Positions 1,454 to 29,270 of a stretch of DNA of 38,917 nt are shown piece after piece; positions within the stretch are counted from its first letter, which is position 1; each line of letters opens with the position of its first letter. Origin of the DNA: a bacterium. GTDB lineage: Bacteria; Vulcanimicrobiota; Vulcanimicrobiia; Vulcanimicrobiales; Vulcanimicrobiaceae. Below the pieces are notes generated by a model. That model was not told the origin of the DNA, ran no database searches, and worked only from the letters and a program-made list of their open reading frames with translations. The position numbers and the translations under genes are program-made. The stretch is taken from the NCBI GenBank assembly GCA_021806945.1, contig JAKAPQ010000005.1, forward strand, positions 1 to 38,917, given 5' to 3'.

Positions 1454-4370
1454 CTTGACGCCGGCACAGCGCCGCGCCGCCGGCGCTCGCGGCAGCAACA
1501 TTCGTGTGGAGGCGGCGCCCGGGTCGGGGAAGACGCAGGTCGTCGTCGAGCGCTGCGCCAGCCTGGTCCGCGAGGGAGTCGGACCGGAGCGCATCCTGCT
1601 GCTGACGTTCTCACGGCGTGCCGTCGGTGAACTGCGAGCGCGTTTGGCAGCACGGTTCGGTGCCTGCATACCGATTCCGGACGTCCGTACCTTCCACGGG
1701 TTCGCTTCGCGACTGCTCGCCGTCGAAGGCGCGGCCTTTCGGAATCGGCGTCTGCTGAGCGCTCCGGCCGAAGCGGCGCTCTTTGCCGAAGCGGTGCGCC
1801 GGACGGAGTTGACCGGTTTCTCCAAAGAGGTCGTTCGCTCGGAACGCTTTCTTCGGGACGCGCAGCTGCGCGTCGCCGAATTAGGACGGGCCGACGCCGG
1901 CGCCGTTGCGGCGCTCGAACGCGCCGCCGGTGCGAAAGTTCGCGATCTCGTCGCCATCGCACGGCGAGTGCGCGCGTTGCGGGACGATCTCGCGGTTGCC
2001 GACTACGACGATCTCGTCGGGCGCGCCGTTCGCCTGGCGGCGGATACGTCGAGCTCGGTTCACCAGTGGCTGCAGGGGCGGTACGCGCACGTATTGGTCG
2101 ACGAATTCCAAGATGTGGACCCCCTGCAGCTCGCGCTGCTCCGGCATACCGGCGGGGAGATCTTTGCGATCGGAGACGCCGCACAGGCGATCCATGGCTT
2201 TCGCGGTGCCGCGCGCCAGGCGATCGAGGAAGCGTCGCGCGCTTTGGAGATGCGCCGCGTCACGCTCAGCGAGAGCTTTCGCTGCTCGCAAGCCATCTGC
2301 AGTCTCGCCGCGGCGACGCCGTATCTTCCGCCGCACGCCACGCCGATCTCGCTCGGCACGGCGCCGGGCACCGTCGAGTACCGGCAAGCGGCGACGCCGC
2401 TGGACGAGGCATCGCTCATCGGCGAGCGGGTGGCAGATGCGATCGCGCTCGAGCGGCGAGCGGCCAGTACGATCGGCGTGCTGCTGCGCGCCTACGCTCC
2501 GCTTGGACCGCTGGTCACCGCTGAGTTGGAGCGTCGCGGGATTCCGGTAGCGCAAACCGGCGGCATGCTGCTGCTGCACGATCCGATCGTCGACGCGATC
2601 CTCGCCGGCCTCGAGGTTTTGCGGAAGCCCGGCGACCTCGATGCGTGGACGCGGCTGCTGGCGCTGCCGGCGTTCGGGCATTCGCCGCTCCGGATGCGCC
2701 TGGCATTCGAAGGCGGCACCGGGATTGGCATCGAGGCAGTCGCCCGCGCGCTCTCCGGGGCGCAGATCAAAGGGCGCTTGGAGCCGGAACGGTTCGCCGA
2801 AACCTTCCGCGAGGCGCTCGCGCTCTGGAATGCGGGCGAGCCGGTGCGCGCGGCGCGCAAGCTCGCCCGCGGTTGGGATCTGCTCGGTTGGCTGATCGCC
2901 TCGGAGCGCGACGAGAACCTCCTTCGCGCGTCGAGCGCCCGGCTGAAGAGCTTTCTCGCCGGGTTCGCGGATCTTCAAGCCGTGCGCCGCGATCTCGGGT
3001 TACCGGGCGGATCGGCAGCGACGCTCGATGCATTGATCGAGAGCGCGGCGCGGTGGACCGGCGAGGGAGACGATAACGCGCCGGCGGACGCGGTGCGCGT
3101 GTTGACGATACGTGCGGCGAAGGGTTTGGCGTTCGACTACGCGCTCGTCGGCGACGCGGTCGAGGGCAGGCTGCCGCAGGAGCTGCGGCGAGACGCCATG
3201 GCCGGCGACTCCGAGATCGCTCTCGCTCGCAAGCTCGGCGTCGATCTGTCGATGACGGAAAGCGAAAACGCCGGCGAGGAGGCCTCGCTCTGGTACCTCG
3301 CGGTCACGCGCGCGAAAACGCGCCTGAGCATTACCTGCGCCGCAAACGGTATGGACGGCGCGGTGCAAGTGCCGAGCCGCTTCATACCGCGCGAGGTCGT
3401 CGAGCGCTTCGCAGACGAGTCCCCCTACCGCGCTGCGCTCGCCTATCGTCCCGCTGCCGAGCCGCGGTTTTTAGAACCGCAGGTTCCGGTGCCGATCGCG
3501 CGTCCGCAATACGTGGCCGCGACGGGCGTCGATACCTGGCTTGCGTGCAAGCGCCGCTTCTATTACAAGAACGTCTTGAAGTTGAGCGACGACGCCGTAC
3601 CGCTTAACGTAACGACCGGCAACGTGCTGCACGCGGTACTCGAACGCTTTCACGCGGACGAGCGCGACTTCACGCACGTAGCGGATGCGGATGCCGCACG
3701 CTGGGAGGCGCGCCTGCTCGAGTTGCGCGCGTCGGTCTGGCGCGATCGCGCCGACGACCTCGGCACCGCGCTTCAAGCGGCGGCTGCCGCGCGCAAGGTG
3801 GATCGGCTGCTCTCTGCTTACGCGCAATCGCTAGCGCAACTTGCGAGGGAGGCACCGTTTACCGTCGTCGAAACCGAACGAACGCACCGATTCGCGCTTC
3901 ACGGCATCGAGATAGTCGGTCGCGTCGACCGCGTGGACCGCCTCGCCGACGATTCGTTAGCGGTATGCGACTATAAGACGGGCGGGCTGGACGCCACGCT
4001 GCGCGATGCGATCGCAAGTCTCGCCGATGCGGCCGAGAGCGGCCAAGTTTGGGTGAAGGGCCTCAAGAAACGGTTGTACGCCCAACTCGCGCTCTACCGG
4101 CACGCGCCGGACATCCCTAATACGCGAAGGGTGAGCTACATCTATCTCGACGGCAAGAAGGAGCGGCGCAAGAGCACCGTCACCCCGGTCGAGATCGATA
4201 CGCTAGAGGATGGCGAAGCGCTGCGCGCTCTCGATACGCTCCTTAAGAGCCTTTTCTTCGACGCTTGGCGTGCCGAGGTGCTCGAACTCGAGCCGACCGA
4301 GAACGCGGCCGAATGCGCGCTCTGCGGCTTCGCGCAGTTGTGCCCGGGTGCCGCGGCGGACGAGGCATGA
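1443..4370 (+). CDS. UvrD-like helicase with RecB-type nuclease, AdnA/AddB-like
   Basis: A 975-aa ATP-dependent helicase-nuclease, probably one half of a double-strand-break resection motor. SF1A helicase motifs are intact: Walker A APGSGKT near residue 25, LLTFSRRAV (Ia), VDEFQDVDPLQ (II) near 219, IGDAAQAIHGFRG (III), SFRCSQA (IV) and AVTRAKTRL (VI) near 620. The C-terminus has a PD-(D/E)xK nuclease core with VDRVDRLADDSLAVCDYKTGG near 842, plus cysteines in LACKRRFYYKN and CALCGFAQLC, the pattern that holds an Fe-S cluster in AddB and AdnAB nucleases. AddB proteins usually have a degenerate helicase; here Walker A and B look functional, so the pair resembles actinobacterial AdnAB more than AddAB. 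The ATG start overlaps the upstream acetyltransferase gene, and its TGA overlaps the ATG of the partner gene. Confidence 0.88.
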   Translation: MRNDLTPAQRRAAGARGSNIRVEAAPGSGKTQVVVERCASLVREGVGPERILLLTFSRRAVGELRARLAARFGACIPIPDVRTFHGFASRLLAVEGAAFRNRRLLSAPAEAALFAEAVRRTELTGFSKEVVRSERFLRDAQLRVAELGRADAGAVAALERAAGAKVRDLVAIARRVRALRDDLAVADYDDLVGRAVRLAADTSSSVHQWLQGRYAHVLVDEFQDVDPLQLALLRHTGGEIFAIGDAAQAIHGFRGAARQAIEEASRALEMRRVTLSESFRCSQAICSLAAATPYLPPHATPISLGTAPGTVEYRQAATPLDEASLIGERVADAIALERRAASTIGVLLRAYAPLGPLVTAELERRGIPVAQTGGMLLLHDPIVDAILAGLEVLRKPGDLDAWTRLLALPAFGHSPLRMRLAFEGGTGIGIEAVARALSGAQIKGRLEPERFAETFREALALWNAGEPVRAARKLARGWDLLGWLIASERDENLLRASSARLKSFLAGFADLQAVRRDLGLPGGSAATLDALIESAARWTGEGDDNAPADAVRVLTIRAAKGLAFDYALVGDAVEGRLPQELRRDAMAGDSEIALARKLGVDLSMTESENAGEEASLWYLAVTRAKTRLSITCAANGMDGAVQVPSRFIPREVVERFADESPYRAALAYRPAAEPRFLEPQVPVPIARPQYVAATGVDTWLACKRRFYYKNVLKLSDDAVPLNVTTGNVLHAVLERFHADERDFTHVADADAARWEARLLELRASVWRDRADDLGTALQAAAAARKVDRLLSAYAQSLAQLAREAPFTVVETERTHRFALHGIEIVGRVDRVDRLADDSLAVCDYKTGGLDATLRDAIASLADAAESGQVWVKGLKKRLYAQLALYRHAPDIPNTRRVSYIYLDGKKERRKSTVTPVEIDTLEDGEALRALDTLLKSLFFDAWRAEVLELEPTENAAECALCGFAQLCPGAAADEA

Positions 4371-7300
4371 CTACCGCGCGGTGGGAGCTCGCGCTCGGCG
4401 GGGGCAAGCGCCCGAGCGACGACCAGCGTGCCGCGATTACGGCGCCGCTCGAGGGTCGCCGCTGCATCGACGCGGGCGCCGGAACCGGGAAGACCGCGAC
4501 GCTCGCGCTGCGCGCGTTGTACCTGATCGAGACGGGGCAGCTGTTCGCGCGCGAGATTCTCGTCGTCACGTTCACGCGTAAGGCGGCCGCCGAGATCGGC
4601 CAGCGCATCCACAACATGCTGCCGGCGAGCGGCGACGCTGACGCCGGCGGGTCCGTAACCTGTTCTACGATCCACGCGCTGGCGGCATCGCTGCTGCGCG
4701 AGTTTGCGTACGACTGCGGGCTCGGAGATCTGCCGCGAACCGTAACCGACGGCGAAGCCCGCGCGATATTCCATAGATCGTTTGCGGCGATGCTGCGCGG
4801 CGAACTCGCTGCGGATGCGAGCGCATTGCCGTTGCCGGATCTTCTGAGCGGAGGCTACGACTTCGAAGGCGATCTCGCGTGTATCGCGCTCGCGTTCAAG
4901 AACCGCGGCACCGGCGTCGACGAGTTCGAACGCGGTGCACTTGCGCAAAGCGACGCCCTAGAGCGGCAAGACTGGGGCCAGCTCTGGAAGCGAAACGGCA
5001 GATACAAGAAAGAAGTTCGCCGCGCGGGCGAGGAACCAAACCCCGAACGCACCGCCGGGCAGCGCAGCGCCGAGGCCGAAGCCGAGCGGAAGAACGTCCG
5101 CGTCATCGCCGCGCTGTTCCGCCGCTTCGACGAAGATCTGCGGCACACCGGCGCGATGACCTATGGCGACTTGATCGCCGCCGCAAGCGCAATGCTGCTA
5201 TCGCATCCGGAGATCGTAACGGTGCTGCGCGAGCGTTGGAAGTATGCGCTCATCGACGAGTTCCAGGATACGAGCCTCGCTCAAATGCGCTTCCTAACCG
5301 CGCTTTTCGGCGATGGCCCGCTGATGCCGGTGGGCGACTTCCGCCAGTCGATCTACGGTTTCAACGGCGCGCACCCGCGCGTGATGCAAGAGTTCAAAGA
5401 GAAGGCGAAGCGGACGTATCCCTTAACGGTGAATCGCCGCTCGTATCGCGAGATCGTGCAGAGCGCGCACGCGGTGCTGAGGGCGCGCGCCCCCGGAGTT
5501 CTCGACGCGCTGGACTCGGGCCTCGACGCCCACAAGCGCGAGGGCGGCGTCGAAGTCGTTCGCGTGCAGACCTTCCGCAGCGAAAACGGCGGCGCGAGAG
5601 AACACGTGCAGGAGGAGGCGCTCGGCATCGCTGCCGAGATCGAGCGGCTGCTTCGCGGCGGCGCGAGGACCTCGCAAATCGCCATTTTGCTGCGGCGGCG
5701 AACGCACGCGCAGGTTTACGTTCGGGCGCTCAACGCACGAGGCATCGCGGCGGCCCTCGACCGGCGGACGGGGTTGCTCGACGCCGCCGAAGTGCGCGAT
5801 GCCATGGCCTGGATGGCGCTGCTCCTACGTCTCGATGACGCTAGAGCCGCGGTCCGCCTTCTACAGTCGCCCGCAATCGGGATATCGGATGGCGGCCTCG
5901 CCGCGATCGCCGGTGCCGGCGGAACGCGTGATGCGGCGTGGCTGCGATCGTTGCTGCGTGGCGAGCTCGACGCACGGCTCGACGCGGATACCGCCGCGCG
6001 AGTCCAATACTTCCGTTCGCTGCTCGAAGGGCTGCTGCACGCGCCCTCGTTGCCGCTGGCGCGCGGCGTACGCGAGGTGCTGCGGCTTACGCCGATCGCA
6101 GCATCCTATGCGACGCCGCCAGGCCTTGCCGCAGCCCAGGTCATCGCGAATTTACGTAACCTCGAAACGCTGGCGGAAAGCCACGCCGCCGAGAGGCCGA
6201 TCGCGCGTCTCGCCGATTTCGTGGCGTATCTAGAGGACTTCGTGAAATATGGCGACGAGCCGCAGGAGGCGGAGCTGGACTTCGAAGGCGTACGCGTCAT
6301 GACCGTGCATCAGGCGAAGGGCCTGGAGTGGGATTACGTCTTCGTCGCCTGCGTCAGCGACGACCAATATAGTTCCGCCGATTTCGGACGCGGCCGGACG
6401 GTCCGCGTGGACCCGCAGTCGTACGCGTCGGCACTGCGCTTTAGCGTGGACGGCACGACGCCCCTGCGGTGGTATATGTCGGACGCGCCCCACGACGCGC
6501 AGACCGGCATGCGGTCCGAAGAGGATCCGGGGAAGCGCGAACGCGAGGACGAACAGGCCCGCACTTTTTACGTCGCGATGACCCGCGCGAAGGAGCGCCT
6601 GTATATCTCGGGCATCCCGAGCAGAGGCAAGAAGGAGCCGCAGTTCATTGAAACCGTGCGGCAGTGGGCGCTCGAACGCGAGATCTCGCCCGAACGCCTC
6701 CATTTCGCCGTAGTCCCGGACCACGCGGCCGAGGCGTCCTCTGCAGCGATGCGGTCCCCTATCGACGTAACGCAGGATTGCGGCACCGTCGCGTACGAGG
6801 CGCAGTCCGTCTTCGTACCGCGCATCTCGTTCACGGCGATCGCGGCGTTCCAAACGTGCCCGCGCCAGGCTCGGTACCGCTATCGCCTGCACCTTCCCGA
6901 TCTGCGCGAGGGCGAGGCGCCGTATGCCGGTGCAGTCGAAAGCGCGGCGGCAACTATCGACGCCGCGACGTTCGGGAATCTCGTACACCGCGCCATGGAG
7001 GTGTGGGGGCGAGCCGCCATCGACGGTGCTCCGGTCGAGGGAGGGGCAGCGTTCGCGCAAGCGATCGCCGAGTTCGCCGGCCTCCCCGAGAACGAACGCC
7101 GACGCGCACTTGCTGCGGTCAGGCACGCGATCGATGCGCTCGCCGGTTACGTGCCGATCGCGGTCGAGGCGCCGTTTTCGACGATCGTCGAAGGGATCCG
7201 CATCGAGGGCTACATCGATCTGGTCGCGCGCGACCGGCACGGCGCGATCGCCATAATCGACTACAAGACCGGGCGCACCGAAGACGAGCATTACGCGCTC

Positions 7301-7558
7301 CAACTCGCAGTCTACAAGCATGCGTACGAGGAGTCGCACCCGGGCACGATCGTTGAGACCGCGATCCTTCGGCTAAGCGGCGATGGCGCGCGCCTTCGCA
7401 GTGGCCGCGACGTTTCCGCGGAAGAACTGAGCCGGTCCGTTAGGGAGGCAGGCGCGTTACGCGACGACACGCCGCGGGTCGGCGAATGGTGCCGGAGCTG
7501 CGCCTACGCAGGCGGGCCGTGCGACGCATTCGCGGAGCGCGCGATGGTTGACGATTGA
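4367..7558 (+). CDS. UvrD-like helicase with RecB-type nuclease, AdnB/AddA-like
   Basis: A 1063-aa partner of the preceding protein, started at the ATG that overlaps the upstream stop as ATGA. Motifs in order: DAGAGTGKTATLAL (Walker A, near residue 38), VTFTRKAAAEIGQR (Ia), LIDEFQDTSLAQ (II, near 295), VGDFRQSIYGFNGA (III), VNRRSYREI (IV), VMTVHQAKGLEWDYVFVA (V, near 644) and AMTRAKERLYIS (VI, near 738). The C-terminal nuclease has FQTCPRQARYRYRL, FGNLVHRAME and IIDYKTGRTEDEHYALQL (near 963), followed by WCRSCAYAGGPC, giving the four cysteines expected for an Fe-S-stapled RecB nuclease domain. Two complete motors and two complete nucleases in tandem are the AdnAB plan. The expected role is end resection in recombinational repair and degradation of foreign linear DNA. 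Confidence 0.9.
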   Translation: MTTARWELALGGGKRPSDDQRAAITAPLEGRRCIDAGAGTGKTATLALRALYLIETGQLFAREILVVTFTRKAAAEIGQRIHNMLPASGDADAGGSVTCSTIHALAASLLREFAYDCGLGDLPRTVTDGEARAIFHRSFAAMLRGELAADASALPLPDLLSGGYDFEGDLACIALAFKNRGTGVDEFERGALAQSDALERQDWGQLWKRNGRYKKEVRRAGEEPNPERTAGQRSAEAEAERKNVRVIAALFRRFDEDLRHTGAMTYGDLIAAASAMLLSHPEIVTVLRERWKYALIDEFQDTSLAQMRFLTALFGDGPLMPVGDFRQSIYGFNGAHPRVMQEFKEKAKRTYPLTVNRRSYREIVQSAHAVLRARAPGVLDALDSGLDAHKREGGVEVVRVQTFRSENGGAREHVQEEALGIAAEIERLLRGGARTSQIAILLRRRTHAQVYVRALNARGIAAALDRRTGLLDAAEVRDAMAWMALLLRLDDARAAVRLLQSPAIGISDGGLAAIAGAGGTRDAAWLRSLLRGELDARLDADTAARVQYFRSLLEGLLHAPSLPLARGVREVLRLTPIAASYATPPGLAAAQVIANLRNLETLAESHAAERPIARLADFVAYLEDFVKYGDEPQEAELDFEGVRVMTVHQAKGLEWDYVFVACVSDDQYSSADFGRGRTVRVDPQSYASALRFSVDGTTPLRWYMSDAPHDAQTGMRSEEDPGKREREDEQARTFYVAMTRAKERLYISGIPSRGKKEPQFIETVRQWALEREISPERLHFAVVPDHAAEASSAAMRSPIDVTQDCGTVAYEAQSVFVPRISFTAIAAFQTCPRQARYRYRLHLPDLREGEAPYAGAVESAAATIDAATFGNLVHRAMEVWGRAAIDGAPVEGGAAFAQAIAEFAGLPENERRRALAAVRHAIDALAGYVPIAVEAPFSTIVEGIRIEGYIDLVARDRHGAIAIIDYKTGRTEDEHYALQLAVYKHAYEESHPGTIVETAILRLSGDGARLRSGRDVSAEELSRSVREAGALRDDTPRVGEWCRSCAYAGGPCDAFAERAMVDD

Positions 7559-8127: not shown

Positions 8128-8910
8128 TCATTCCGCGGAAGGCGCAACGGCCTGCGTCGATGCGAATATCCAAGCGAACACGGCTAGCAGCGTCAGAACC
8201 AAGGTGCCACTGACCGCCAAGTCGGAAAAGGGCGTTCGAACTCCGAGAACCAGGACCAGCTCGTAAGCCGCAACCGCAACCGCAAAGAGCGACACGGACC
8301 AAATCCACACGCGCATTACATGCGGCAGTTGACCGGAACGATAGGTGACCAGGCGGTGAACGAGGATGGAATCCAGTGTATCCGTGCAGCACATTCCGGC
8401 GGAGAACATTATACCGACCAGCACTGCGCCGAGTACTCCCGCGTCCGCGCCGAATGCCACCGCGTAGGCGGCGATCTGAGACGACGTTTCAAAGCCGAAA
8501 CCGAACAACATTCCGACCGGGATCGCCATCCAGGGGCTGTCGGCTTGACGTAGCCATGCTGGAAGCAAGCCTGTCTTGAATCCCCCGGCGCGATATGTCT
8601 GACCGCTCGCCAACTGCCGGAAATTGAGTGCGGCGATGAACAGCAGCATGAGTATGCTCACCCAGGTACCGATGCGCTCGATCGCTGCCGAGTGCGGCGC
8701 GAACGTAGAACCGAGGAACCCAATCAGCGCGGCAATAGCGATAACCATGACCATGTGCCCGCCGGCAAAAAACGTACCGATGAATCGGGTCCACAACGAT
8801 CGGCGCGGCGCGCAATTGCGCGTCAAATTGTCGATCGCCGCAAGATGATCCGGATCCGCGCCGTGCCGCAGGCCCAGCGCAAACACCGTAAACGCGCCGG
8901 TCGCGATCAT
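8128..8910 (-). CDS. NiCoT-family nickel transporter
   Basis: Inner-membrane nickel (possibly nickel/cobalt) permease of the HoxN/NixA family, about 260 aa with several hydrophobic helices. The signature near the N-terminus is LGLRHGADPDHLAAIDN, a variant of the family's HAxDADHI metal-selectivity motif. FGFETSSQIAAY and AGMCCTDTLDS are the second and third conserved motifs. The start is placed at the ATG that overlaps the hypB stop as ATGA; an in-frame ATG at 8955 would add 15 residues. As last gene of the hydrogenase operon it most likely supplies Ni2+ for the active site through HypA and HypB. GADPDHL differs from the canonical sequence at two positions, so cobalt selectivity cannot be excluded. 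Confidence 0.9.
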   Translation of the reverse strand: MIATGAFTVFALGLRHGADPDHLAAIDNLTRNCAPRRSLWTRFIGTFFAGGHMVMVIAIAALIGFLGSTFAPHSAAIERIGTWVSILMLLFIAALNFRQLASGQTYRAGGFKTGLLPAWLRQADSPWMAIPVGMLFGFGFETSSQIAAYAVAFGADAGVLGAVLVGIMFSAGMCCTDTLDSILVHRLVTYRSGQLPHVMRVWIWSVSLFAVAVAAYELVLVLGVRTPFSDLAVSGTLVLTLLAVFAWIFASTQAVAPSAE

Positions 8911-9614
8911 GAGCGCGCTCCAGTCGGTTCCGGCTTCATCAGCCCGCCCATCCATTCAAGCCATTGTGCAATGCCCTCGCCCGTGTGCACCGATAGCCGA
9001 ATCACGCATGACGTTGGATTCACGCGGGCTACCGCCGCTTCGAAATCCTCGATCTTCGTCCCGGGCAGATGCGGCAACAGATCGATTTTCGTGAGCAGCA
9101 CGAGATCGGTCTTCATAAACATGACCGGGTATTTCAACGGCTTGTCCCAGCCCTCGGTGATCGAGAGCACCACGACGTTAGCAGCTTGGCCGAGATCGTA
9201 CACGGCCGGGCATACGAGATTGCCCACGTTCTCCACCGCCAAAATATCGTAACCCGACGGCGGCAGGTCATCCAGTGCATGATGCACCATCGCTGCGTCG
9301 AGATGACAGGCAGAACCGGTGCTAACCGACACCGCCTCAATACCGGCGCGGCGCAAGCGCTGTGCGTCGTGATCGGTCGCGAGATCGCCGTTTATCGCGG
9401 CCATCTGGAAGCGTCCCTGCAAGGCGGCGGCCGTAGCTTCGAGTAAGGCGGTCTTCCCCGCGCCCGGCGAGCCCATGACGTTCAGCGTGAGGACGCCGCT
9501 CCGTTCAAAATGCTCGCGGTTGTGAGCCGCGGCTCGATCGTTTCCGGAGAGAATCCGTTCGTGCATTTCAACCGACACGATCTCCGTGTCGCCGCATCCG
9601 CATTCCTGACACAT
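8907..9614 (-). CDS. hypB: Hydrogenase nickel-insertion GTPase HypB
   Basis: Cytoplasmic SIMIBI-class GTPase, 235 aa, that works with HypA to deliver Ni2+ to the hydrogenase large subunit. Visible motifs: the N-terminal Cys cluster MCQECGCGD, Walker A MGSPGAGKTALLE, NGDLATDHDAQRL with the switch Asp, and LTKIDLLPHL (NKxD-type guanine-recognition loop). CHLDAAMV and ENVGNLVCPAVYDLG are the conserved HypB metal-site region at the GTPase dimer interface. The polyhistidine nickel-storage stretch of some HypB proteins is absent, which suits an operon with its own nickel importer. The ATG at 9612-9614 shares one base with the hypA stop (TGATG), and the stop overlaps the transporter start. Confidence 0.97.
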   Translation of the reverse strand: MCQECGCGDTEIVSVEMHERILSGNDRAAAHNREHFERSGVLTLNVMGSPGAGKTALLEATAAALQGRFQMAAINGDLATDHDAQRLRRAGIEAVSVSTGSACHLDAAMVHHALDDLPPSGYDILAVENVGNLVCPAVYDLGQAANVVVLSITEGWDKPLKYPVMFMKTDLVLLTKIDLLPHLPGTKIEDFEAAVARVNPTSCVIRLSVHTGEGIAQWLEWMGGLMKPEPTGARS

Positions 9615-9955
9615 CACAAAACCTCCATCTCGATTCGGTTCAAAATCATTTCGTCGCCGGCGGTAAGACGCGGCGGCGTTCCGCACCGCCAGCACAGCAG
9701 CCCCGCATTTCGGTCGATCACCGTTCCGCATGCTGGACAGGTCCAGCGCTCATCGACGCGCTCGATGACGAGCTCTGCTGCCTCGCATAGCGTTCGTTCG
9801 CGAAAGACCTCGAACGCCGTCGCCAAGAGGACCGGCTCGACTCCCGAGACCGCACCAATGCGTACATGCACGCGATTCACGACACGAGCACCACGCCGCC
9901 GCGCTTCGTCCTCCACCTGCGAGATGAGTGCTCCAACAATCGAGTACTCGTGCAT
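9614..9955 (-). CDS. hypA: Hydrogenase nickel metallochaperone HypA
   Basis: A 113-aa nickel metallochaperone. It begins MHEYSIV, the conserved HypA N-terminus whose His2 is a nickel ligand. The zinc-binding loop is present as CPAC ... CWRC (residues near 72-93), and the C-terminus ends with the family's short acidic strand. With HypB it hands Ni2+ to the apo large subunit after the Fe(CN)2CO group is in place. The start is ATG 9955; the frame is open further upstream but the longer form has no homology to the family. It begins 7 nt after the crotonase stop and ends in a 1-nt overlap with hypB, so translation is coupled. Confidence 0.96.
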   Translation of the reverse strand: MHEYSIVGALISQVEDEARRRGARVVNRVHVRIGAVSGVEPVLLATAFEVFRERTLCEAAELVIERVDERWTCPACGTVIDRNAGLLCWRCGTPPRLTAGDEMILNRIEMEVL

Positions 9956-9962: not shown

Positions 9963-10796
9963 TCAGTGCTCTCCAAACCGTGGTGTCTTCTTGGCAACGA
10001 ATGCCTCGATGCCCACCCTAAAATCGCTGCCGCCGGCAATTCTGGCAAGCGTGTCGAGCTCTTGGTCCAGATGGTGATCGAGACGATCGACGCCGGCAGC
10101 TTGATTGATCAGCGCTTTTGCATATCCATACGCGCGCGTCGGTCCTTGCGCCAGCTCTTGCGCGATCTCCATCGTTCTCGTTTCGAATTGATCCGTCGGA
10201 TAGACCCCGTTGGCAAGCCCCCACTCCAGCGCTTCTCGCGCATCGAGTCGCGGATTGAGCAACACCATCGCCATCGCCCGGTGCAAACCAACTAGCCGCG
10301 GCAGAAAAAACGTGGAGCTCTCCGCACCGGTGAGACCGGTGCGTTTGTACGCCCATTCGAAACTTGCGCGCTCCGACGCGAATACTAAGTCGCAGCACAT
10401 CGCCAAGCCGAATCCGCCTGCGGCAGCCATACCGTCCACTGCCGCGATGACGGGCTTGGCGGCGCGCTTGATCTCCGAAATAGTACTGTGCAGATACTCG
10501 AGAATCTGCTTGAATATCTCGCCAAAGCCTTCGGGCGCCACCGTGACTTTCGGCTGCAAGTAGGAAAGATCGTCCGCCTCCGCGCCGGCATAGATGTACT
10601 TTAAGTCCGCACCGCTGCAAAACACGCCATTCGCCCCGCGCAAGACGATCACCCGCACGGTATCGTCGCGAGCAAACTCCAGACTGGCTTTGCGCAAGTC
10701 GCGCGCGGTCTCGACGTCGAGTGAGTTGAAACGTGCGCGACGATCGATTGTGATGACACCGACTGCGCCTACGCGTTGTTGAAGAATGTGTTCCAT
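9963..10796 (-). CDS. Crotonase-fold (enoyl-CoA hydratase-like) protein in the hyp operon
   Basis: A 277-aa stand-alone crotonase. The CoA-binding and oxyanion-hole segments are clear: FCSGADLKYIY (residues 59-69) and AAVDGMAAAGGFGLAMCCD (118-136). In the standard alignment the two hydratase catalytic glutamates fall on G130 and Y150, so a normal hydratase mechanism is unlikely. Y150 and E159 (AYKRTGLTGAES) are the polar candidates in the active-site segment. It lies between hypE and hypA, starting at ATG 10796 next to the hypE stop; ATG 10805, overlapping that stop, is an alternative. HypX, which makes the CO ligand in aerobic hydrogenase producers, has a C-terminal domain of this fold. A role in ligand synthesis is therefore inferred from context. 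A displaced fatty-acid or aromatic catabolism enzyme is the alternative. Confidence 0.85.
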   Translation of the reverse strand: MEHILQQRVGAVGVITIDRRARFNSLDVETARDLRKASLEFARDDTVRVIVLRGANGVFCSGADLKYIYAGAEADDLSYLQPKVTVAPEGFGEIFKQILEYLHSTISEIKRAAKPVIAAVDGMAAAGGFGLAMCCDLVFASERASFEWAYKRTGLTGAESSTFFLPRLVGLHRAMAMVLLNPRLDAREALEWGLANGVYPTDQFETRTMEIAQELAQGPTRAYGYAKALINQAAGVDRLDHHLDQELDTLARIAGGSDFRVGIEAFVAKKTPRFGEH

Positions 10797-10798
10797 CG

Positions 10799-11836
10799 CT
10801 AACATATTCTCGGAAGAAGTTCGCCTTCGGGCTCGACCAGCAGCCGGCGGCCGAATCCCGTGTCCAGCACCACGTACCCGGGCCGTTCGCTCACGCACGT
10901 TCCCACAATCGCCGCATCGGCGCCCAGCGCCGTGCGGCGCAATACGGCGAGAACTCTCTCTGCGGCCTCAGGGCGCACGCCGATGACGGCCTTCCCCTCG
11001 TTCGCAGCGTGCAATGGATCGATGCCGAGCAGTTCGCTCGCTGCGCGAACCGCGTCGCGAATTGGAATGTCGTGCTCCTGAATCACGATGCCGACGCCGC
11101 TCTTCTCAGCCATTTCGTGCAGCGCGCTTGACAGACCGCCGCGCGTTGGGTCCTTGAGCGCTACGATCTCCTCCGGTGCGCACTCGAGTGCCGCGCGCAC
11201 GAGCGCGTTGATGGGAGCCGCATCCGAGCTGAATGCTCCTTCCAGACCCATGGCGTTGCGATACGCCATCACCGCCAAGCCGTGGTCGCCCATCGTGCCG
11301 GTAACGATGATGCTATCTCCCGGCTTCAGGCCGCGATCCGTCACAACGCGTTTGGTCAGTGCGATGCCCGCGGTGTTTATAACGATACCGTCGATCTCTC
11401 CGCGTCGCATAACCTTCGTGTCGCCCGTAACGATCGCCGTTCCCGCCTTGCGGCACGTAGCATGGAGCGACCGTTGAATCTGCTCGAGGTCGCTGCGCGA
11501 GAACCCCTCTTCGATAATGACCGCACATGTGAGCGCAAGAGGTTGCGTCGCACCCATCATGGCGAGATCGTTCACCGTTCCGGAAACCGCTAGCCCGCCG
11601 ATGTCACCACCCGGAAAGAACGGCGGTGAGATGACGTACGAGTCCGTCGTCATCACCAGCCATTCGCCGCCAACGCGTAGCGCGGCGCCGTCGTCCATCG
11701 CATCGAGCCCGATCGTGCCTTCGGGCAACGCTTGCTCGCCCTGGAGAAAGACATCGCGGATCAGCTCGCGCATCGCGCGACCACCCGCACCGTGTTTGAG
11801 CGAGATCGTGCCGTCTCGGCCCAAAATCGTGGTCAC
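10799..11836 (-). CDS. hypE: Hydrogenase maturation dehydratase HypE
   Basis: PurM/ThiL-fold enzyme, 345 aa, that converts the carbamoyl group placed on its C-terminal cysteine by HypF into a thiocyanate, the source of the active-site cyanides. The C-terminus is LLPRIC, the invariant tail with the modified cysteine. The N-terminal ISLKHGAGGRAMRELI block and VTGDTKVM in the middle are typical nucleotide-binding segments. The start is GTG 11836, overlapping the hypD stop as GTGA; the longer open frame upstream lies antisense-like inside hypD and is ignored. All key elements are present. Confidence 0.97.
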   Translation of the reverse strand: MTTILGRDGTISLKHGAGGRAMRELIRDVFLQGEQALPEGTIGLDAMDDGAALRVGGEWLVMTTDSYVISPPFFPGGDIGGLAVSGTVNDLAMMGATQPLALTCAVIIEEGFSRSDLEQIQRSLHATCRKAGTAIVTGDTKVMRRGEIDGIVINTAGIALTKRVVTDRGLKPGDSIIVTGTMGDHGLAVMAYRNAMGLEGAFSSDAAPINALVRAALECAPEEIVALKDPTRGGLSSALHEMAEKSGVGIVIQEHDIPIRDAVRAASELLGIDPLHAANEGKAVIGVRPEAAERVLAVLRRTALGADAAIVGTCVSERPGYVVLDTGFGRRLLVEPEGELLPRIC

Positions 11837-12981
11837 GATCCGTACCCAAGGTCGAGATGGCCGCCGTACTGGTGCCAAATGCGGCACGTACCTTCGCTGC
11901 TGACCATGCACGCGCCCACCGGATGATCGGGGTCACACCGGTTTCCATACAGCGAACAGCCGGTCGGCGAGGCAATGCCGGCCATGATGTCGCCGCATAT
12001 GCAATTCTGCGTCAAATTCGCGGGGGCGTGGTCCCAAAGCTGGTGGAGATCGATCTGAAAGCGCCGGCGCGCATCCACGTGCGCGAACTGATCCCGCAGA
12101 CGAAGGTTGCCGTTCGGTACATGTGCGATCCCGCGCCACCGTCCGCCGATCGGCCGGAACACGCTCCAGAGCGCCTCCTGCGCCTGACGGTTGCCTTCAC
12201 GCGTGACGCAGCGTGGATACATGTTCGCTACCTCCGCGCGACGCTCGCGTATGAGTTCGACCAGCCGGATGAGGCCGGCAAGAATGTCGAGCGGTTCGAA
12301 CCCTGCGACAACGACGGGCAACTTGTGCCGCTCGGTGAAGCGCTCAAAAATCCCGAATCCCGTGATCGCTGCTGCATGGCCCGCCGCGAGGAACCCTTCG
12401 ATGCGCGTCTGCGGCATCTCGGCGACGATCTCCATGACGGGTGGAATGTACTTGTGAGCGGAGAGCACGGACAAATTTTGCGGCAGGCCGGCGAGAATCA
12501 CCGCTGCCGTCGCCACGGCCGTAGTCTCGAAACCGCTTGCGAAGAAGACGCACTCTTCTCGCGTCTCGCGCGCAATCTGCACCGCCTGCCCGATACCGTA
12601 GACAACGTCCACCGTGCTGCCCTCGGCCTTCGCATCGGCAAGTGACTTGACGCTGCCAGGAACACGGAGCATGTCGCCATAGGTGAAGACGCGCACGCCT
12701 TGTGCGGCAAGCAGCACCGCCTCGTCGACCTCCGGCACGTCGGTGACGCAGACGGGGCAACCAGGCCCCATAATCACGTCGAGCTCGCGCGGAAATGCTG
12801 CACGCAGCCCATATCTCGCGATCGCCTGTTCGTGGCTACCGCAGACATGCATCACGCTCACGGGCTCCCGCCCAATCGAGCGCGTCACGCGAGCAAGCGT
12901 CGCCGCCATTTCGCGCGCCTTGCCGGGCTCTTGAAAGCGCAGATGCGCGCCTAGTTCGTCGCGGTTACGCAGAATGTTCAC
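11833..12981 (-). CDS. hypD: Hydrogenase Fe-cofactor assembly protein HypD
   Basis: Fe-S scaffold, about 382 aa, on which the Fe(CN)2CO unit is built together with HypC. Conserved motifs: MHVCGSHEQAI near the N-terminus, MGPGCPVCVTDVPEVD with the thiol-disulfide cysteines, and ASGFETTAVATA. The C-terminal cysteine series NCICGDIMAG, TGCSLYGNRCDPDHPVGACM and SSEGTC binds the 4Fe-4S cluster. The start is uncertain: GTG 12981 gives VNILRNRDELG, the shortest version that keeps the N-terminal helix, while GTG 13002 adds seven residues; neither has a strong ribosome site. It overlaps hypC by 17 nt and hypE by 4 nt. Confidence 0.96.
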   Translation of the reverse strand: MNILRNRDELGAHLRFQEPGKAREMAATLARVTRSIGREPVSVMHVCGSHEQAIARYGLRAAFPRELDVIMGPGCPVCVTDVPEVDEAVLLAAQGVRVFTYGDMLRVPGSVKSLADAKAEGSTVDVVYGIGQAVQIARETREECVFFASGFETTAVATAAVILAGLPQNLSVLSAHKYIPPVMEIVAEMPQTRIEGFLAAGHAAAITGFGIFERFTERHKLPVVVAGFEPLDILAGLIRLVELIRERRAEVANMYPRCVTREGNRQAQEALWSVFRPIGGRWRGIAHVPNGNLRLRDQFAHVDARRRFQIDLHQLWDHAPANLTQNCICGDIMAGIASPTGCSLYGNRCDPDHPVGACMVSSEGTCRIWHQYGGHLDLGYGS

Positions 12982-13255
12982 CTTCCATCGCGCCGATCTC
13001 ACCGCGCACGTCCGCGGCCATCAAATCTTCTTCCGCCGCGGTCCGCAGCAACAGCTCGTACAACGCAATCGTTTCGCCGATCTCCTCGGGCGCAATTCGC
13101 CTGATCGCGAACCCGACATGATTCATCACGTAGTCACCGGGCTTGACCGGCTCATCGACGATGTCGAGCCGCACCTGCCTGCGCACGCCGAAGAAATCTA
13201 CGGTTGCTGTGTTGCCGTCAACCGAAACGACCTCGCCCGGAACCCCAAGACACAT
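12965..13255 (-). CDS. hypC: Hydrogenase maturation chaperone HypC
   Basis: A 96-aa small chaperone that carries the iron unit between HypD and the large subunit. It begins MCLGVPGEVVSVDG, with the invariant Cys2 that binds the iron. PVKPGDYVMNHVGFAIRRI follows, the second family signature (the OB-fold strand with GDYVxxHxGFA). The C-terminal helix is somewhat longer than in short HypC proteins and acidic. The start ATG 13255 lies 5 nt after the hypF stop. The longer open frame upstream runs antisense to no known domain and is rejected because Cys2 must be next to the initiator. Confidence 0.97.
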   Translation of the reverse strand: MCLGVPGEVVSVDGNTATVDFFGVRRQVRLDIVDEPVKPGDYVMNHVGFAIRRIAPEEIGETIALYELLLRTAAEEDLMAADVRGEIGAMEGEHSA

Positions 13256-13260
13256 CGCGT

Positions 13261-15549
13261 TCAACCCCCAAAGGCGTCGGAGAGTGCTGCGGCCACGACC
13301 GCTTGGCCAAGCGCAATCCCGCCGTCGCCCGGCGGTACGTTTCGCGGCAGATGTACGTCGAGATTCGGGGAGAGCCGCGCGAGCAGCGCGCTTGCCAAGC
13401 GATCGTTCTGGAAGCATCCGCCGCTGAGGACGACGGTCCGGCAACCGGTCCGCTCTGCCGCCGCGCGCACGACTTGCGCCGTCGCATGCGCGAGGGTGTT
13501 GTGAAATTTCGACGAAAGTTCGCCGGGCCCACATCCTCCAACCACAGCCTCCACCGCTTCACGAAACGCCGGGCGCAGGTCGATCTGCCACGGCTTCGCT
13601 ACGTCGTCGATACGATACGAGAAACGTGACGTGACATTCCCATCGTGCGCATACTCGAGCAGCATCGCGGCCTCGCCTTCGTATCGCGCATGCGTAATGC
13701 CGAGCGCAAGCGCCGCCATCGCGTCGAAGTACCGGCCAGCACCGTGCGCGAGCGGAGAGTTGAAACGTTTCGCGACCATCGTCATCACCATCTCGAGCGC
13801 CTGCACCGGCACATCGTTGAAGCGCGCAAGCACGTCACGCGGAGGTGCACCATCGTAAGCGTCCATTACGGCGGCCACACCGATGCGCCACACCTGACGA
13901 ATCGCTACATCGCCGCCGGCAAGCGCGAGCGGACGCAGCGTCGCAATACGCTCGAAGCCGGTATACTGCGCGAGGAGCAGCTCGCCACCCCAACTTGCGC
14001 CGTCCGTACCGTATCCGGCCCCGTCGAGGGCGACGCCGAGAACGGGAGCCTTCAGGTCATGCTCGGCCATCACACTTGCCACATGGGCATGATGGTGTTG
14101 CACGCCGATGCGCACGACGCCGTCTCTCCCTTTTGCGTAGCGTGTGGAAAGGTAATCCGGATGAAGGTCGTGGGCGACGACTTGCGGCTCGACGGCGAGC
14201 AGGCGCTCCATCAGCACGATCGACTCCTCGAAAGACGCGAAGGCCTCGAGGTTGTCGAGATCGCCGATGTGCGGCCCGAGGAATGCTTGATCGTTCACCG
14301 CCAAGCAAAACGTGTTCTTCAACTGTGCGCCGCAGGCCAGAACCGGCTTGTCGAAACGGCGCTGCAGGAGCACGGGACGCGGCACGTATCCGCGCGACCG
14401 GCGCAGAACGGTCGGCGCTCCCGCTACGACGCGTACGACGGAATCGTCGCATCGGGTGACGATGTCGCGATCGTGGAGTAGAAAAGCATCGGCAATGCCG
14501 CCGAGGCGCGCGCACGCCTCATCGTTGCGATAGGCAATGGGCTCATCGCTCACATTGCCGGAGGTCATGACCAGTGGTCGCGCACACTCGGCCAAGAGCA
14601 CGTGGTGAAGCGGCGCGTACGCAAGCATCACGCCGACCAGCGGATTGCCGGGTGCGACGTTCTGCGCGAGTTCACCACCGTCGCGTCTAGGGGCGAGGAC
14701 GATCGGATGCTGCGGCGATGCGAGTACGCGCCGCGTTCCCTCATCGAGAATCGCAATGCGCTCGGCTTGCGGCAGACCGGCAACCATGACCGCCAGCGGC
14801 TTGGCTTCGCGGCGCTTGCGTTCGCGCAGGCGCAGAACCGCCGCTTCCGAGGTTGCATCACACACCAAATGGAACCCGCCAAGCCCTTTCGCTGCAACGA
14901 TGAGACCTTGAGCAATCACCTGCGCCGCAGCGCGTACGGGATCGTCGCAGTCGGTTTCGGCACCGGCGGCGCCGACCAGGCGCAAAGAAGGCCCGCAGGC
15001 CGGGCATGCGTTGGGCTGCGCATGAAAGCGGCGATCGGTAACGGTCGTATACTCTTGCCGGCATGCCGGGCACATGGGAAAACCCGCCATCGACGTAGCG
15101 GGGCGATCGTACGGCACGTCGCGCACGATCGTGAAGCGCGGACCGCAGTTGGTGCAGTTCGTGAATGCGTAGCGATAGCGCCGGTTCGAAGGGTCGAAGA
15201 CCTCGGCCAGGCATTGATCGCATGTCGCGATGTCGGGAGGAATCGCAAGGCGGCGCTTCTCCGCACCGAGGCTGGGCGCAATTTCAAAACCCTGCGGCGC
15301 AGGGGCCTCGATCGGTTTCCAGTCCAGCGCGGCAATCTCGGCCGCCGACGGCGGTTCCTTGCGCAGGGAACCCACAAAACGATCGAGCGCACGCGTCGAG
15401 CCGAATGCCTCGATCGTAACGCCCGAAGCGTCGTTTAGGACCCGCCCTACGATTCCGTGCTCGTGCGCGAGCCGGGAAACCCACGGCCGAAAGCCGACAC
15501 CTTGGACGATGCCGCTAACCCGGATTTCACGCCCACAAGCGAGCGCCAT
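13261..15549 (-). CDS. hypF: Carbamoyltransferase HypF
   Basis: A 762-aa protein that makes carbamoyl-adenylate from carbamoyl phosphate and ATP and moves the carbamoyl group to HypE, the first step in cyanide ligand synthesis. Domains in order: acylphosphatase (IVQGVGFRPWVSRLA, residues 12-26), a double zinc-finger region (CDQCLAEVFD, NCTNCGP, CPACRQEY and CPACGP, near 105-190), a YrdC-like domain (LIVAAKGLGGFHLVCDA) and a C-terminal Kae1-like domain with VQHHHAHVASVMAEH and LSGGCFQN. The ATG at 15549 has a GAGGGGAG ribosome site about 6 nt upstream and overlaps hyaD by 23 nt. Length and all four domains are normal. Confidence 0.97.
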   Translation of the reverse strand: MALACGREIRVSGIVQGVGFRPWVSRLAHEHGIVGRVLNDASGVTIEAFGSTRALDRFVGSLRKEPPSAAEIAALDWKPIEAPAPQGFEIAPSLGAEKRRLAIPPDIATCDQCLAEVFDPSNRRYRYAFTNCTNCGPRFTIVRDVPYDRPATSMAGFPMCPACRQEYTTVTDRRFHAQPNACPACGPSLRLVGAAGAETDCDDPVRAAAQVIAQGLIVAAKGLGGFHLVCDATSEAAVLRLRERKRREAKPLAVMVAGLPQAERIAILDEGTRRVLASPQHPIVLAPRRDGGELAQNVAPGNPLVGVMLAYAPLHHVLLAECARPLVMTSGNVSDEPIAYRNDEACARLGGIADAFLLHDRDIVTRCDDSVVRVVAGAPTVLRRSRGYVPRPVLLQRRFDKPVLACGAQLKNTFCLAVNDQAFLGPHIGDLDNLEAFASFEESIVLMERLLAVEPQVVAHDLHPDYLSTRYAKGRDGVVRIGVQHHHAHVASVMAEHDLKAPVLGVALDGAGYGTDGASWGGELLLAQYTGFERIATLRPLALAGGDVAIRQVWRIGVAAVMDAYDGAPPRDVLARFNDVPVQALEMVMTMVAKRFNSPLAHGAGRYFDAMAALALGITHARYEGEAAMLLEYAHDGNVTSRFSYRIDDVAKPWQIDLRPAFREAVEAVVGGCGPGELSSKFHNTLAHATAQVVRAAAERTGCRTVVLSGGCFQNDRLASALLARLSPNLDVHLPRNVPPGDGGIALGQAVVAAALSDAFGG

Positions 15550-16054
15550 CAGAGACTCCCCTCTGGGGCTTGAGGCGCAACACATGCCCCAACGCGGCGG
15601 CCTCGCCGAGAATGGAATCGATGAGGGCAGGCATCCCTGCCTCAACTCCGGGCGAGAGTCCGATGCCCAGATCCATGCGATCGGGAACCAGTCCGAGCAA
15701 CATGATCTTCGTCGGCGAACACCCTAACAGCTCGGCGGCGTCGAGCAGATCCGCAACGCCTATATCATGCGGCGAAAGCCGTTCGCGCACTGCGGGAGAC
15801 ACGTCCGCGCCTTCTAGGCGGACTACCGCACCCGGCGCATCCTCACAACGAATTGCATCGATCATCAGCACCACCCGCGCCTCATGCAGCAATGGGAGTA
15901 AAGCAAGACCGAGCGTGCCCCCGTCGACGATGCGCACGCCATGCGGTGTGTCATATCGCTCTTCGAGCTGATGCACGGCCATCACGCCCAGGCCATCATC
16001 GCCGCACAACACGTTTCCAAGACCCAGAATCAGAAGGTCGATTTCAACGGTCAC
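15527..16054 (-). CDS. hyaD: Hydrogenase maturation endopeptidase, HyaD/HybD type
   Basis: A 175-aa nickel-dependent protease that cuts the C-terminal tail from the large subunit after nickel insertion. GLGNVLCGDDGLGVMAV near the N-terminus is the family signature with the first acidic nickel ligand; VDGGTLGLALLPLL and IDAIRCEDAPG provide the central region, and SPHDIGVADLL carries the conserved His. The start is GTG 16054, overlapping the cytochrome gene by 11 nt, with GGAGGAGG directly upstream; the longer frame has no homology. The 15-residue tail of the large-subunit gene is its expected substrate. Confidence 0.94.
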   Translation of the reverse strand: MTVEIDLLILGLGNVLCGDDGLGVMAVHQLEERYDTPHGVRIVDGGTLGLALLPLLHEARVVLMIDAIRCEDAPGAVVRLEGADVSPAVRERLSPHDIGVADLLDAAELLGCSPTKIMLLGLVPDRMDLGIGLSPGVEAGMPALIDSILGEAAALGHVLRLKPQRGVSDGARLWA

Positions 16055-16769
16055 GGGCCTCCTCCGCGAGGTCCTCCTTGGTGACGTAACGATAGCCGGA
16101 GAGCATCGACTCGACGGTTCCATCGTGCTTGACCGTGGATAGAACGATAACGCGTATGACGTGCTGCAGGATGAACAGGATCGCGACCCACATGAGCATG
16201 TGGTGCAGCCAGCGAACACTCTGCAACCCACCAAAATAGGGGATCAGGCCCTGGAAGATCGCCAGCGGAGAGCTGTACGACGTGATCTTGGAATAGAGTG
16301 CAAACCCCGTGGCGATGATCAGTAGATCGACGAGGAACCGCGCCGCAAAGATCAGCCCGTCGAGGGCGTCATGGCCAATCGCCTCGGGCGGCGTGCGCCG
16401 CAGGAACACATAGAACTTCAGTGACTCGAGCGCACTATTCCAACGTCGCTTGGTAACGGGGATGAACTGATCCCAGCGCGCGTACGGGCTGCCGACGAAC
16501 ATCAATACGATGCGCGCAAAGACCGCCAAATCGAAGACCATCGCCGTGTAAAAATGCACGACGCGAACGGTCCCCATGAGAAAGGGCTCGTACGCATCGC
16601 GCGCGACCGGGATGAACGGATGAGAGATGTAACTGCCCGTGATCGCGAGAATGATGAAACAAAAGAACACCGCCCAGTGAATCACCCGCACCCAGATGTC
16701 CCAAACGTAGACCGGTACGCGCACGGCTTCGCCTGCAACGGGAGCGCGCACTGCATTTTCAGCGCTCAT
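16044..16769 (-). CDS. hyaC: Ni/Fe-hydrogenase b-type cytochrome subunit
   Basis: A 241-aa di-haem membrane cytochrome that anchors the periplasm-facing hydrogenase and passes electrons to the quinone pool. Four membrane segments are visible: around residues 30-48, 70-93, 145-165 and 190-212. Candidate haem ligands are H31 (RVIHW), H72 (VVHFYTA) and histidines in RWLHHML and FILQHVIRV. The N-terminus is cytoplasmic, with a VPVYVWDIWVRVIHW start typical of HyaC/HupC. The gene overlaps the large-subunit gene as ATGA. Its presence marks the enzyme as a membrane-bound group 1 respiratory uptake hydrogenase, not a soluble or bidirectional type. Confidence 0.96.
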   Translation of the reverse strand: MSAENAVRAPVAGEAVRVPVYVWDIWVRVIHWAVFFCFIILAITGSYISHPFIPVARDAYEPFLMGTVRVVHFYTAMVFDLAVFARIVLMFVGSPYARWDQFIPVTKRRWNSALESLKFYVFLRRTPPEAIGHDALDGLIFAARFLVDLLIIATGFALYSKITSYSSPLAIFQGLIPYFGGLQSVRWLHHMLMWVAILFILQHVIRVIVLSTVKHDGTVESMLSGYRYVTKEDLAEEARDR

Positions 16770-18472
16770 ACTGCCCTCACTAGCACGATCTCATTCTTGT
16801 TGGCATCGACGACGTGCACGCCGCAGGCTAAGCATGGATCGAATGAATGGACGGTGCGCAAAATTTCGAGCGGCTGATCGGCTATCGCAACCGGAGTTCC
16901 GACGAGCGCCGCCTCGTAAGGGCCGCGGTTGCCGCGTGCATCGCGAGGCCCCGCGTTCCACGTAGACGGCACGACGCACTGGTAGTTGCCGATTGCGCCG
17001 TTCTTGATGTGCACCCAGTGCCCGAGCGCACCGCGCGGTGCCTCATGGAAGCCCGCGCCCATGCATTCGGCAGGCCAGGTGGACGGATCCCATTTCGTGT
17101 TGTCGTTGATGCGAAGGTCCCCCTGCGCCATGTTGTTGGCGAGCGCATCCACCCAGTCCGACATTTTGTCGACGATGATCTGCGTCTCGATTCCACGCGC
17201 GGCAGTGCGCCCTAGCGTAGAGAACAACGCGGCGGGACCGACGCCCAGTGCCGCGAGCGCTCCATTGACGGCCTTCTTTACTTGCGGGTGACCTTTCGCA
17301 TACGCCACGAGCATGCGCGCAAGCGGACCCACTTCCATCGGTTTATCGCTGTAGCGAGGTGCCTTGAGCCAGCTATACTTGCCGTCGGTATGGAGCCGGT
17401 CGTACGGCGGCTTCGGGCCGGTGTACGTCGGATGCGTCTCGCCAGCGAACGGATGGAGCCCGCGCTCGTTGCCTTCTTTGTACTCATACCACGAGTGGGT
17501 GACGAACTCCGAAATCTGTCCCGGATCCACCGGATGCACGTGCGCGAGATCGCGCTGCAGGATGATGCCGGACGGAAGGTACGGCAAGGGATTCGGGCCT
17601 CCGGCATCCGGGAACTCGCCGTAGGACATATAATTGCCGACGCCGGCGCCGATGGAGGCCCACTCCTTGTAGAACGATGCGATCGCCAGGAGATCGGGTA
17701 TGTAAACTTGATTGACGAAAGTGCGTGCATCTGCGATGATCTCGTGCAGCGCCGCAATCGTTCCGATGTTGATCGCGTTTTCCGAATTGGGATCGATCGG
17801 CGTTGCCATGCCGCCAACCAGGTAACTCTGCAGGTGCGGATTCTTTCCGCCCAGCAAGGCATGGATGCGAATGAACTTCCGCTGCCATTCAAGCGCTTCG
17901 AGATAATGCGCGACGGCGAGCAGATTCGCTTCAGGCGGAAGGCGATACGCGGGATGCCCCCAGTATGCATTGGCGAACGGGCCAAGCCTGCCGCCGCTCA
18001 CGAAACCCTTGAGACGATCGCGTACGGCGCTGAAATACTTCTCGCTCGACAACGGCCAATCGGAGATCGATTGGGCTAGCTTCGACGTCTTTGCGGGATC
18101 GCCGGAGAGTGCCGAAACGACATCCACCCAATCCAATGCGTGTAATTGATAGAAATGGACGACGTGGTCCTGAACGAACTGCGCAGCGGTTATTAGATTG
18201 CGCAACAGCCGCGCATTGGGCGGCGGCTCGGCGCCGATTGCATTCTCCACGGCGAGGACGGACGCGAGTGCATGCACGGTAGTGCAAACGCCGCAAATTC
18301 GTTGCGTGAAGACCCAGGCATCGCGCGGATCCCGGCCCTGCAAGATGATCTCGATGCCGCGGAACATCGTCGAGGAAGACCATGCATCCCGTAAGACCCC
18401 GCCGTCCACCTCGGCCTCGATTCGAAGATGGCCCTCGATACGCGTAATAGGATCGACGACAATATGAGTCAT
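16766..18472 (-). CDS. hyaB: [NiFe]-hydrogenase large subunit, group 1
   Basis: Catalytic subunit, 568 aa, holding the Ni-Fe(CN)2CO centre. The first ligand motif is QRICGVCT (C60, C63) and the second is DPCLACGVH (C547, C550) near the end. The 15 residues after H553 form the tail removed by the maturation protease. DPITRIEGHLRIE at the N-terminus, NPLPYLPSGI and GALGHWVHIKNGAIGNYQ are further conserved group 1 segments. CGVH in the second motif differs slightly from the common CAxH form. I cannot assign the HydDB subgroup by eye. It overlaps both neighbours by 4 nt (ATGA), so the three structural subunits are translationally coupled. Confidence 0.98.
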   Translation of the reverse strand: MTHIVVDPITRIEGHLRIEAEVDGGVLRDAWSSSTMFRGIEIILQGRDPRDAWVFTQRICGVCTTVHALASVLAVENAIGAEPPPNARLLRNLITAAQFVQDHVVHFYQLHALDWVDVVSALSGDPAKTSKLAQSISDWPLSSEKYFSAVRDRLKGFVSGGRLGPFANAYWGHPAYRLPPEANLLAVAHYLEALEWQRKFIRIHALLGGKNPHLQSYLVGGMATPIDPNSENAINIGTIAALHEIIADARTFVNQVYIPDLLAIASFYKEWASIGAGVGNYMSYGEFPDAGGPNPLPYLPSGIILQRDLAHVHPVDPGQISEFVTHSWYEYKEGNERGLHPFAGETHPTYTGPKPPYDRLHTDGKYSWLKAPRYSDKPMEVGPLARMLVAYAKGHPQVKKAVNGALAALGVGPAALFSTLGRTAARGIETQIIVDKMSDWVDALANNMAQGDLRINDNTKWDPSTWPAECMGAGFHEAPRGALGHWVHIKNGAIGNYQCVVPSTWNAGPRDARGNRGPYEAALVGTPVAIADQPLEILRTVHSFDPCLACGVHVVDANKNEIVLVRAV

Positions 18473-19581: not shown

Positions 19582-19586
19582 GGGTT

Positions 19587-19591
19587 CCTCC
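19587..19591 (-). promoter_or_regulatory. Shine-Dalgarno site that decides the hyaA start
   Basis: GGAGG lies 5 nt upstream of GTG 19581 and inside the first codons of the alternative ATG 19593. Its ideal spacing to the GTG makes that codon the likelier initiator. The ATG has no comparable site upstream. Confidence 0.65.
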
Positions 19592-19674
19592 ATATAAGGG
19601 ATTGCTCAAAAGGAGCTCCGCGCGGGATAGAAATAAAACCGGGCAATTCAACCGGCCCAAGCTCCGCATAGTCC

Positions 19675-25510: not shown

Positions 25511-25565
25511 GGGATACAAAGCGCTCCTACGACCGCCTTTCGAGATGCTCGACCGTTCGGCCAGC

Positions 25566-26960: not shown

Positions 26961-27000
26961 GCGGGAAACTTTCTTCTCGACTCGGCGTACGTGGAGAGCG

Positions 27001-29145: not shown

Positions 29146-29147
29146 GG

Positions 29148-29270
29148 CTAGCGCATTCGCATGGCGAGCAGCACCGAGGCGAGCACCGATAAGGATGCCA
29201 CGGTGAACGCCAAGTGCCTCGCCCAAGGGGGCATGATCGGCTTGCGCGGCGGTTCGAATGTTGAGTACAT
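29148..29270 (-). CDS. Possible 40-aa single-span membrane protein
   Basis: A short frame reads MYSTFEPPRKPIMPPWAR, then a hydrophobic helix (HLAFTVASLSVLASVLLAM) and a basic end RMR. It fills the space between the convergent outer-membrane gene (stop 29145) and the upstream region. The composition is that of real small membrane proteins, but no ribosome site is obvious and no family is known to me, so it may be chance. Confidence 0.45.
   Translation of the reverse strand: MYSTFEPPRKPIMPPWARHLAFTVASLSVLASVLLAMRMR

Follow-up and report, generated by a model that had tools for sequence, protein, structure and literature searches.

A stand-alone crotonase with HypX-type active-site residues in a hydrogenase maturation operon: candidate half of a two-protein CO-ligand system

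HypX (also HoxX), known from C. necator, A. aeolicus, and R. leguminosarum (PDB 6J0P), is an N10-formyl-tetrahydrofolate (THF) formyltransferase fused to a crotonase. In the A. aeolicus enzyme, Tyr416 and Glu426 lie near the sulphur of CoA. They are equivalent to Tyr439 and Glu449 of R. eutropha HypX, and mutation of either residue alone produces a HypX-minus phenotype (PMC6802093).

A crotonase encoded without a fused formyltransferase was found in the window, meaning the whole 38,917-nucleotide stretch of DNA that was analysed. From the letters of the DNA alone, an earlier sequence-only reading had proposed it to be a stand-alone formyl-CoA decarbonylase and possibly one part of a split HypX.

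The crotonase and its operon

The crotonase open reading frame is found on the minus strand at positions 9963-10796 and represents a real gene, with a match to PF00378 (E 3e-51). The likelier start is the ATG at 10805 (gene 9963-10805). This ATG lies within the sequence ATGTTAG, which is shared with the hypE stop codon and is kept in the nearest relative (L015). Residues are numbered here from the ATG at 10805; G133, Y153, and E162 therefore become G130, Y150, and E159 if counted from 10796. The product is a stand-alone protein of 280 amino acids and, unlike HypX, has no formyltransferase fused to it.

The hydrogenase/hyp operon around the gene is complete. All of its genes are on the minus strand and neighbours overlap or nearly touch. 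It begins with the [NiFe]-hydrogenase small subunit (18469-19593; TIGR00391 and alignment with HoxK) and large subunit (16766-18472; NCBIfam hydrogenase large-subunit models), followed by a b-type cytochrome (16044-16769; TIGR02125, 146 bits, above the cut-off) and a maturation protease of the HycI family (15527-16234; PF01750). Next are hypF (open reading frame 13261-15645; TIGR00143, 752 bits), hypC (open reading frame 12965-13534, with the HypC domain at residues 94-158; PF01455 and TIGR00074), and hypD (open reading frame 11833-13002; TIGR00075, 385 bits). hypE (open reading frame 10799-11911, although its real start may be internal; TIGR02124, 388 bits, cut-off 252) precedes the crotonase. 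Downstream of the crotonase are hypA (9614-9955, with a start inferred from the beginning of the HypA profile; PF01155, 92.6 bits, and TIGR00100, 83.8 bits, just under the cut-off of 88.1), hypB (8907-9731; TIGR00073, 257 bits, cut-off 121), and a NicO-type nickel transporter (8128-8955; PF03824). Pfam and NCBIfam assignments of HypE, HypA, and HypB thus bear out the claim that the crotonase is tightly set in the maturation operon between hypE and hypA. It is also correct that none of the operon genes encodes a formyltransferase.

The proximal-cluster motif of the small subunit, DCAGNTES, aligns with ECTCCSES of C. necator HoxK. We take this motif to resemble the 3Cys1Asp proximal cluster of group 1h-like, oxygen-insensitive hydrogenases, and this likeness makes aerobic maturation of the window hydrogenase plausible.

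Other genes were also identified in the window. Two tandem genes for UvrD-helicase and PD-(D/E)XK nuclease proteins (AddAB-like; 1443-7558) adjoin the hydrogenase operon, and a Schlafen group 3 type helicase gene (20380-22260) is located directly upstream of it on the same strand. The block at 23850-38902 contains ParB/Noc-like, MnmG, MnmE, and YidC-like genes and looks replication-origin-proximal.

Alignment with E. coli PaaF and other hydratases revealed that both hydratase catalytic glutamates are replaced in the window crotonase. The columns of rat E144 and E164 hold Gly133 and Tyr153, so the glutamate pair of an enoyl-CoA hydratase is absent. These replacements, and the presence of Glu162, had been read correctly from the sequence. 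The statement that a Tyr and a Glu are implicated in HypX was likewise right, the residues being Tyr416 and Glu426 of A. aeolicus (PMC6802093). In all ten HypX sequences compared, the two essential residues align with Tyr153 and Glu162. C. necator HypX and several others have one extra residue in the active-site segment, while HypX from Embleya, Nonomuraea, Acaryochloris, and Mycetohabitans has a Tyr-Glu spacing identical to that of the window crotonase. Both residues are invariant in the crotonase orthologues (26/26), as are the oxyanion-hole glycines and the segment around the active site. Among 48 other crotonases (42 in the main alignment and the six nearest non-family ones), none has Glu in the Glu162 column. 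Tyr alone is not diagnostic because five of the six nearest non-family, PaaG-like crotonases carry it too, together with an Asp one place before Glu162, which is the PaaG pattern. Within the sequences compared, the Glu is diagnostic.

Structure prediction from the single sequence was poor (pLDDT 39.6), and with 15 sequences it was good (pLDDT 85.7). A fold search with the latter model confirmed a crotonase; HypX was not among the top 50 matches listed.

Orthologues and a partner formyltransferase in Acidobacteriota

The single protein, used as query against 84,980 species genomes, retrieved four close orthologues, all adjoining hyp genes. Orthologues with 59-70% identity are present in 12 of 347 Acidobacteriota genomes. 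Together with L018 and 11 further genomes from the class of G060, this gives 24 orthologue-bearing acidobacterial genomes. In all 24, as in the window's genus, the crotonase is in a hyp operon, an outcome in favour of the earlier proposal. The window's phylum, which comprises 149 genomes in all, seems to be distinct from Acidobacteriota, where the 347 genomes were drawn from a larger group. Among these 149, the crotonase is confined to the window's genus, and a plasmid search found no orthologue of either the crotonase or the formyltransferase described below. The operons closest to that of the window are those of L017 and L018 (large subunit 73-74%), and the window lineage is probably a recipient of horizontal transfer from Acidobacteriota. 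Fused HypX was found in 2/347 acidobacterial genomes, neither of which has the crotonase. hypD is present in 163/347, and both HypX and the stand-alone crotonase are missing from most Acidobacteriota that carry HypD. A fusion, suggested by the long open frames that surround the crotonase in G506 and G507, was rejected, as the neighbours are the usual separate genes.

In L017, the gene between hypE and the crotonase matches the PF00551 formyltransferase family (71.8 bits). Of the 23 readable acidobacterial operons, 14 have a stand-alone formyltransferase gene immediately upstream of the crotonase (8/13 in a first set and 6/10 readable ones in a second). The formyltransferase half that is missing from the window stands beside the crotonase in these relatives, where the two are encoded by separate genes. 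The upstream gene was PF00551-positive in 8/8 scanned, the Asn120, His122, and Asp166 triad is intact in 14/14, and five of the eight gene pairs measured have a 4-nt overlap between formyltransferase stop and crotonase start. With a profile, the formyltransferase family was detected in 10/347 acidobacterial genomes, and nine of these ten also encode the crotonase (Fisher p 1e-14). The protein matches PF00551 only, without the Fmt/FDH type and OB-fold C-terminal subdomain that mark HypX, and its score against the PurN profile TIGR00639 is 74.9 bits, below the cut-off of 150.

Two members of the formyltransferase family located away from the crotonase still adjoin hyp genes, namely hypC in G090, and hypF and hypB in G103, a genome in which no HypD was found. 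These hyp-adjacent relatives (L137:7884-8711 and L138:7705-8388) lack the Asn and Asp of the triad, and we read them as probable decaying or changed copies.

The formyltransferase is absent from the other 9/23 readable operons. No substitute gene is common to these operons; the genes seen there, for cytochrome c, cytochrome b, Rieske, peptidase, and YwiC-like proteins, are not shared. Eight genomes that lack a copy next to the crotonase were searched for one elsewhere, which revealed no types other than PurN and Fmt/ArnA, besides the triad-less G090 relative. The presence of the formyltransferase switches about seven times across the family tree, and the sisters L017 and L018 differ, the former having the gene and the latter lacking it. 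The crotonase is therefore the retained part of the module.

The window's genome and its two congeners, one of which is 98% complete, yielded no dedicated formyltransferase. The only formyltransferases in the window's genome are Fmt (above its cut-off) and a PurN-like protein (124.5 bits, cut-off 150). The latter (L010:1456-2193) is divergent, with 27% identity to E. coli PurN and an insert after the His motif. In this lineage, formyl-CoA would be supplied by another enzyme, or else the role of the crotonase does not depend on it.

Descent and proposed function

The two halves were placed in separate trees. The acidobacterial formyltransferase clade groups with PurN and PurU (99/93), while in the same tree HypX N-domains fall on the Fmt/ArnA side (96/84), in agreement with a PDB profile search. 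Since one formyltransferase is PurN-type and the HypX N-domain Fmt-type, these placements indicate that the formyltransferase half is not derived from HypX and that the halves were combined independently. The label of a split HypX, in the sense of one HypX cut in two, must therefore be dropped, the formyltransferase being of PurN and not Fmt descent.

For the crotonase, the first tree placed the family together with HypX C-domains (100/99). With the active-site segment removed from this first taxon set, the family fell near PaaG and alternative placements were not rejected (p 0.44 and 0.23). In a second, better-sampled set, to which six close outgroups were added and from which some distant ones were left out, the family and HypX C-domains split from all other crotonases (100/99), also without the segment. 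A HypX C-domain profile ranks the crotonase family first with or without the segment, even when the family is represented by one sequence. By overall profile similarity, the crotonase lies closer to PaaG-like and hydratase crotonases than it does to HypX. The tree proposed as a check thus groups the protein with HypX C-domains rather than with beta-oxidation or aromatic-degradation enzymes, albeit with a long HypX branch and one unstable taxon set. As far as these trees can tell, shared descent of the crotonase halves is likely but not proven because the HypX branch is very long (about 3-5 changes per site).

On the strength of these comparisons, the crotonase is probably the half that releases CO in a two-protein system of HypX type for the CO ligand, with substrates, CO release, and delivery to HypCD all putative. 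N10-formyl-tetrahydrofolate would be the donor from which the PurN-type formyltransferase formylates CoA; the crotonase, with Tyr153 and Glu162, would then release CO from formyl-CoA. The CO would then pass to HypCD as the carbonyl ligand of the [NiFe]-hydrogenase. In the window lineage, the formyltransferase gene would have been lost or never acquired, and the crotonase there would use formyl-CoA made elsewhere, perhaps by the PurN-like protein or another enzyme. The original proposal of a stand-alone HypX-like crotonase is thereby supported and extended to a two-protein module, in which we infer the decarbonylation chemistry from sequence.

It is very improbable that the protein is an ordinary fatty-acid or phenylacetate crotonase (a hydratase or PaaG-type isomerase) lying in the operon by chance. 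Although oxepin/PaaG-type and enoyl-CoA hydratase entries head its NCBIfam and PDB matches, the PaaG/oxepin-type NCBIfam equivalog scores are far under their cut-offs (173/300 and 164/345 bits). Moreover, both hydratase glutamates are gone, the PaaG Asp is absent, and the hyp context extends to every one of the acidobacterial orthologues (24/24). A less remote alternative, though still unlikely, is that the crotonase serves hydrogenase maturation through another reaction or a structural role, such as removal or buffering of formyl-CoA, action on another acyl-CoA, or non-catalytic aid to HypCD. Retention of the crotonase in nine acidobacterial operons and in the window's genus without the formyltransferase would fit such a role, as would the two hyp-linked relatives without catalytic residues. 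Against this stand the invariance (26/26) of the Tyr/Glu pair, the oxyanion-hole glycines, and the surrounding segment, matching residues that HypX needs, and the identity of the gene usually found upstream, a formyltransferase whose triad is intact.

A further alternative concerns descent and is compatible with the proposed CO-releasing function. According to this explanation, the resemblance to HypX arose convergently: separately recruited enzymes, a crotonase of PaaG type and a formyltransferase of PurN type, would have arrived at the same chemistry. The differing descent of the formyltransferase halves (99/93 vs 96/84) speaks for convergence, as do the position of the crotonase near PaaG in one set without the active-site segment and the Tyr already carried by the nearest PaaG-like crotonases. 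However, closer outgroups restore the HypX C-domain grouping (100/99) even when the segment is removed, and the crotonase family is the best match of the HypX profile, which leaves convergence doubtful. A tentative idea, less likely than not, is that the stand-alone crotonase is an old, general CO-releasing unit of aerobic hydrogenase maturation. It may have been paired separately with PurN-type (two genes, in Acidobacteriota) and Fmt-type (fused HypX) formyltransferases, and may act alone in window-like lineages on formyl-CoA from another source.

If the two-protein reading is true, this version would be a second dedicated source of the CO ligand in bacteria which mostly lack HypX (present in 2/347 acidobacterial genomes), and it suggests a second, differently built route to the hydrogenase CO ligand in aerobes. 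Formyltransferase and crotonase would have been paired more than once, and the separate small proteins would let each half-reaction be assayed alone. No description of a two-protein HypX-like system was found in a search of the open-access literature.

Comparison with known systems

Enoyl-CoA hydratase (rat ECH, E. coli PaaF) shares the crotonase fold and CoA-binding motifs with the window crotonase, in which Gly133 and Tyr153 take the place of its catalytic glutamates. By overall sequence and profile, the nearest enzymes are the PaaG-type 1,2-epoxyphenylacetyl-CoA isomerase and its relatives (4FZW_C, 3HRX, 6SL9), which have the crotonase fold and a Tyr or Phe at the position of Tyr153. Unlike PaaG, the family has Ala-Glu where PaaG has an Asp one residue before Glu162, and its context is hyp rather than paa genes. 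The acidobacterial partner is closest to PurN (GAR transformylase) and PurU and has the Asn-His-Asp triad in common with PurN; it differs from PurN in an insertion that follows the His motif and in additional sequence at the C-terminus. A PurN distinct from the partner formyltransferase is also present in genomes such as G060.

Unlike HypX, the acidobacterial system consists of two proteins, and its PurN-type formyltransferase lacks the Fmt C-terminal domain and contains an Asn that HypX lacks; in the window lineage only the crotonase is present. Shared with HypX are the hyp operon, the two enzyme classes in identical order, the Tyr and Glu of the crotonase, the His and Asp of the formyltransferase, and the grouping of the crotonase halves in trees.
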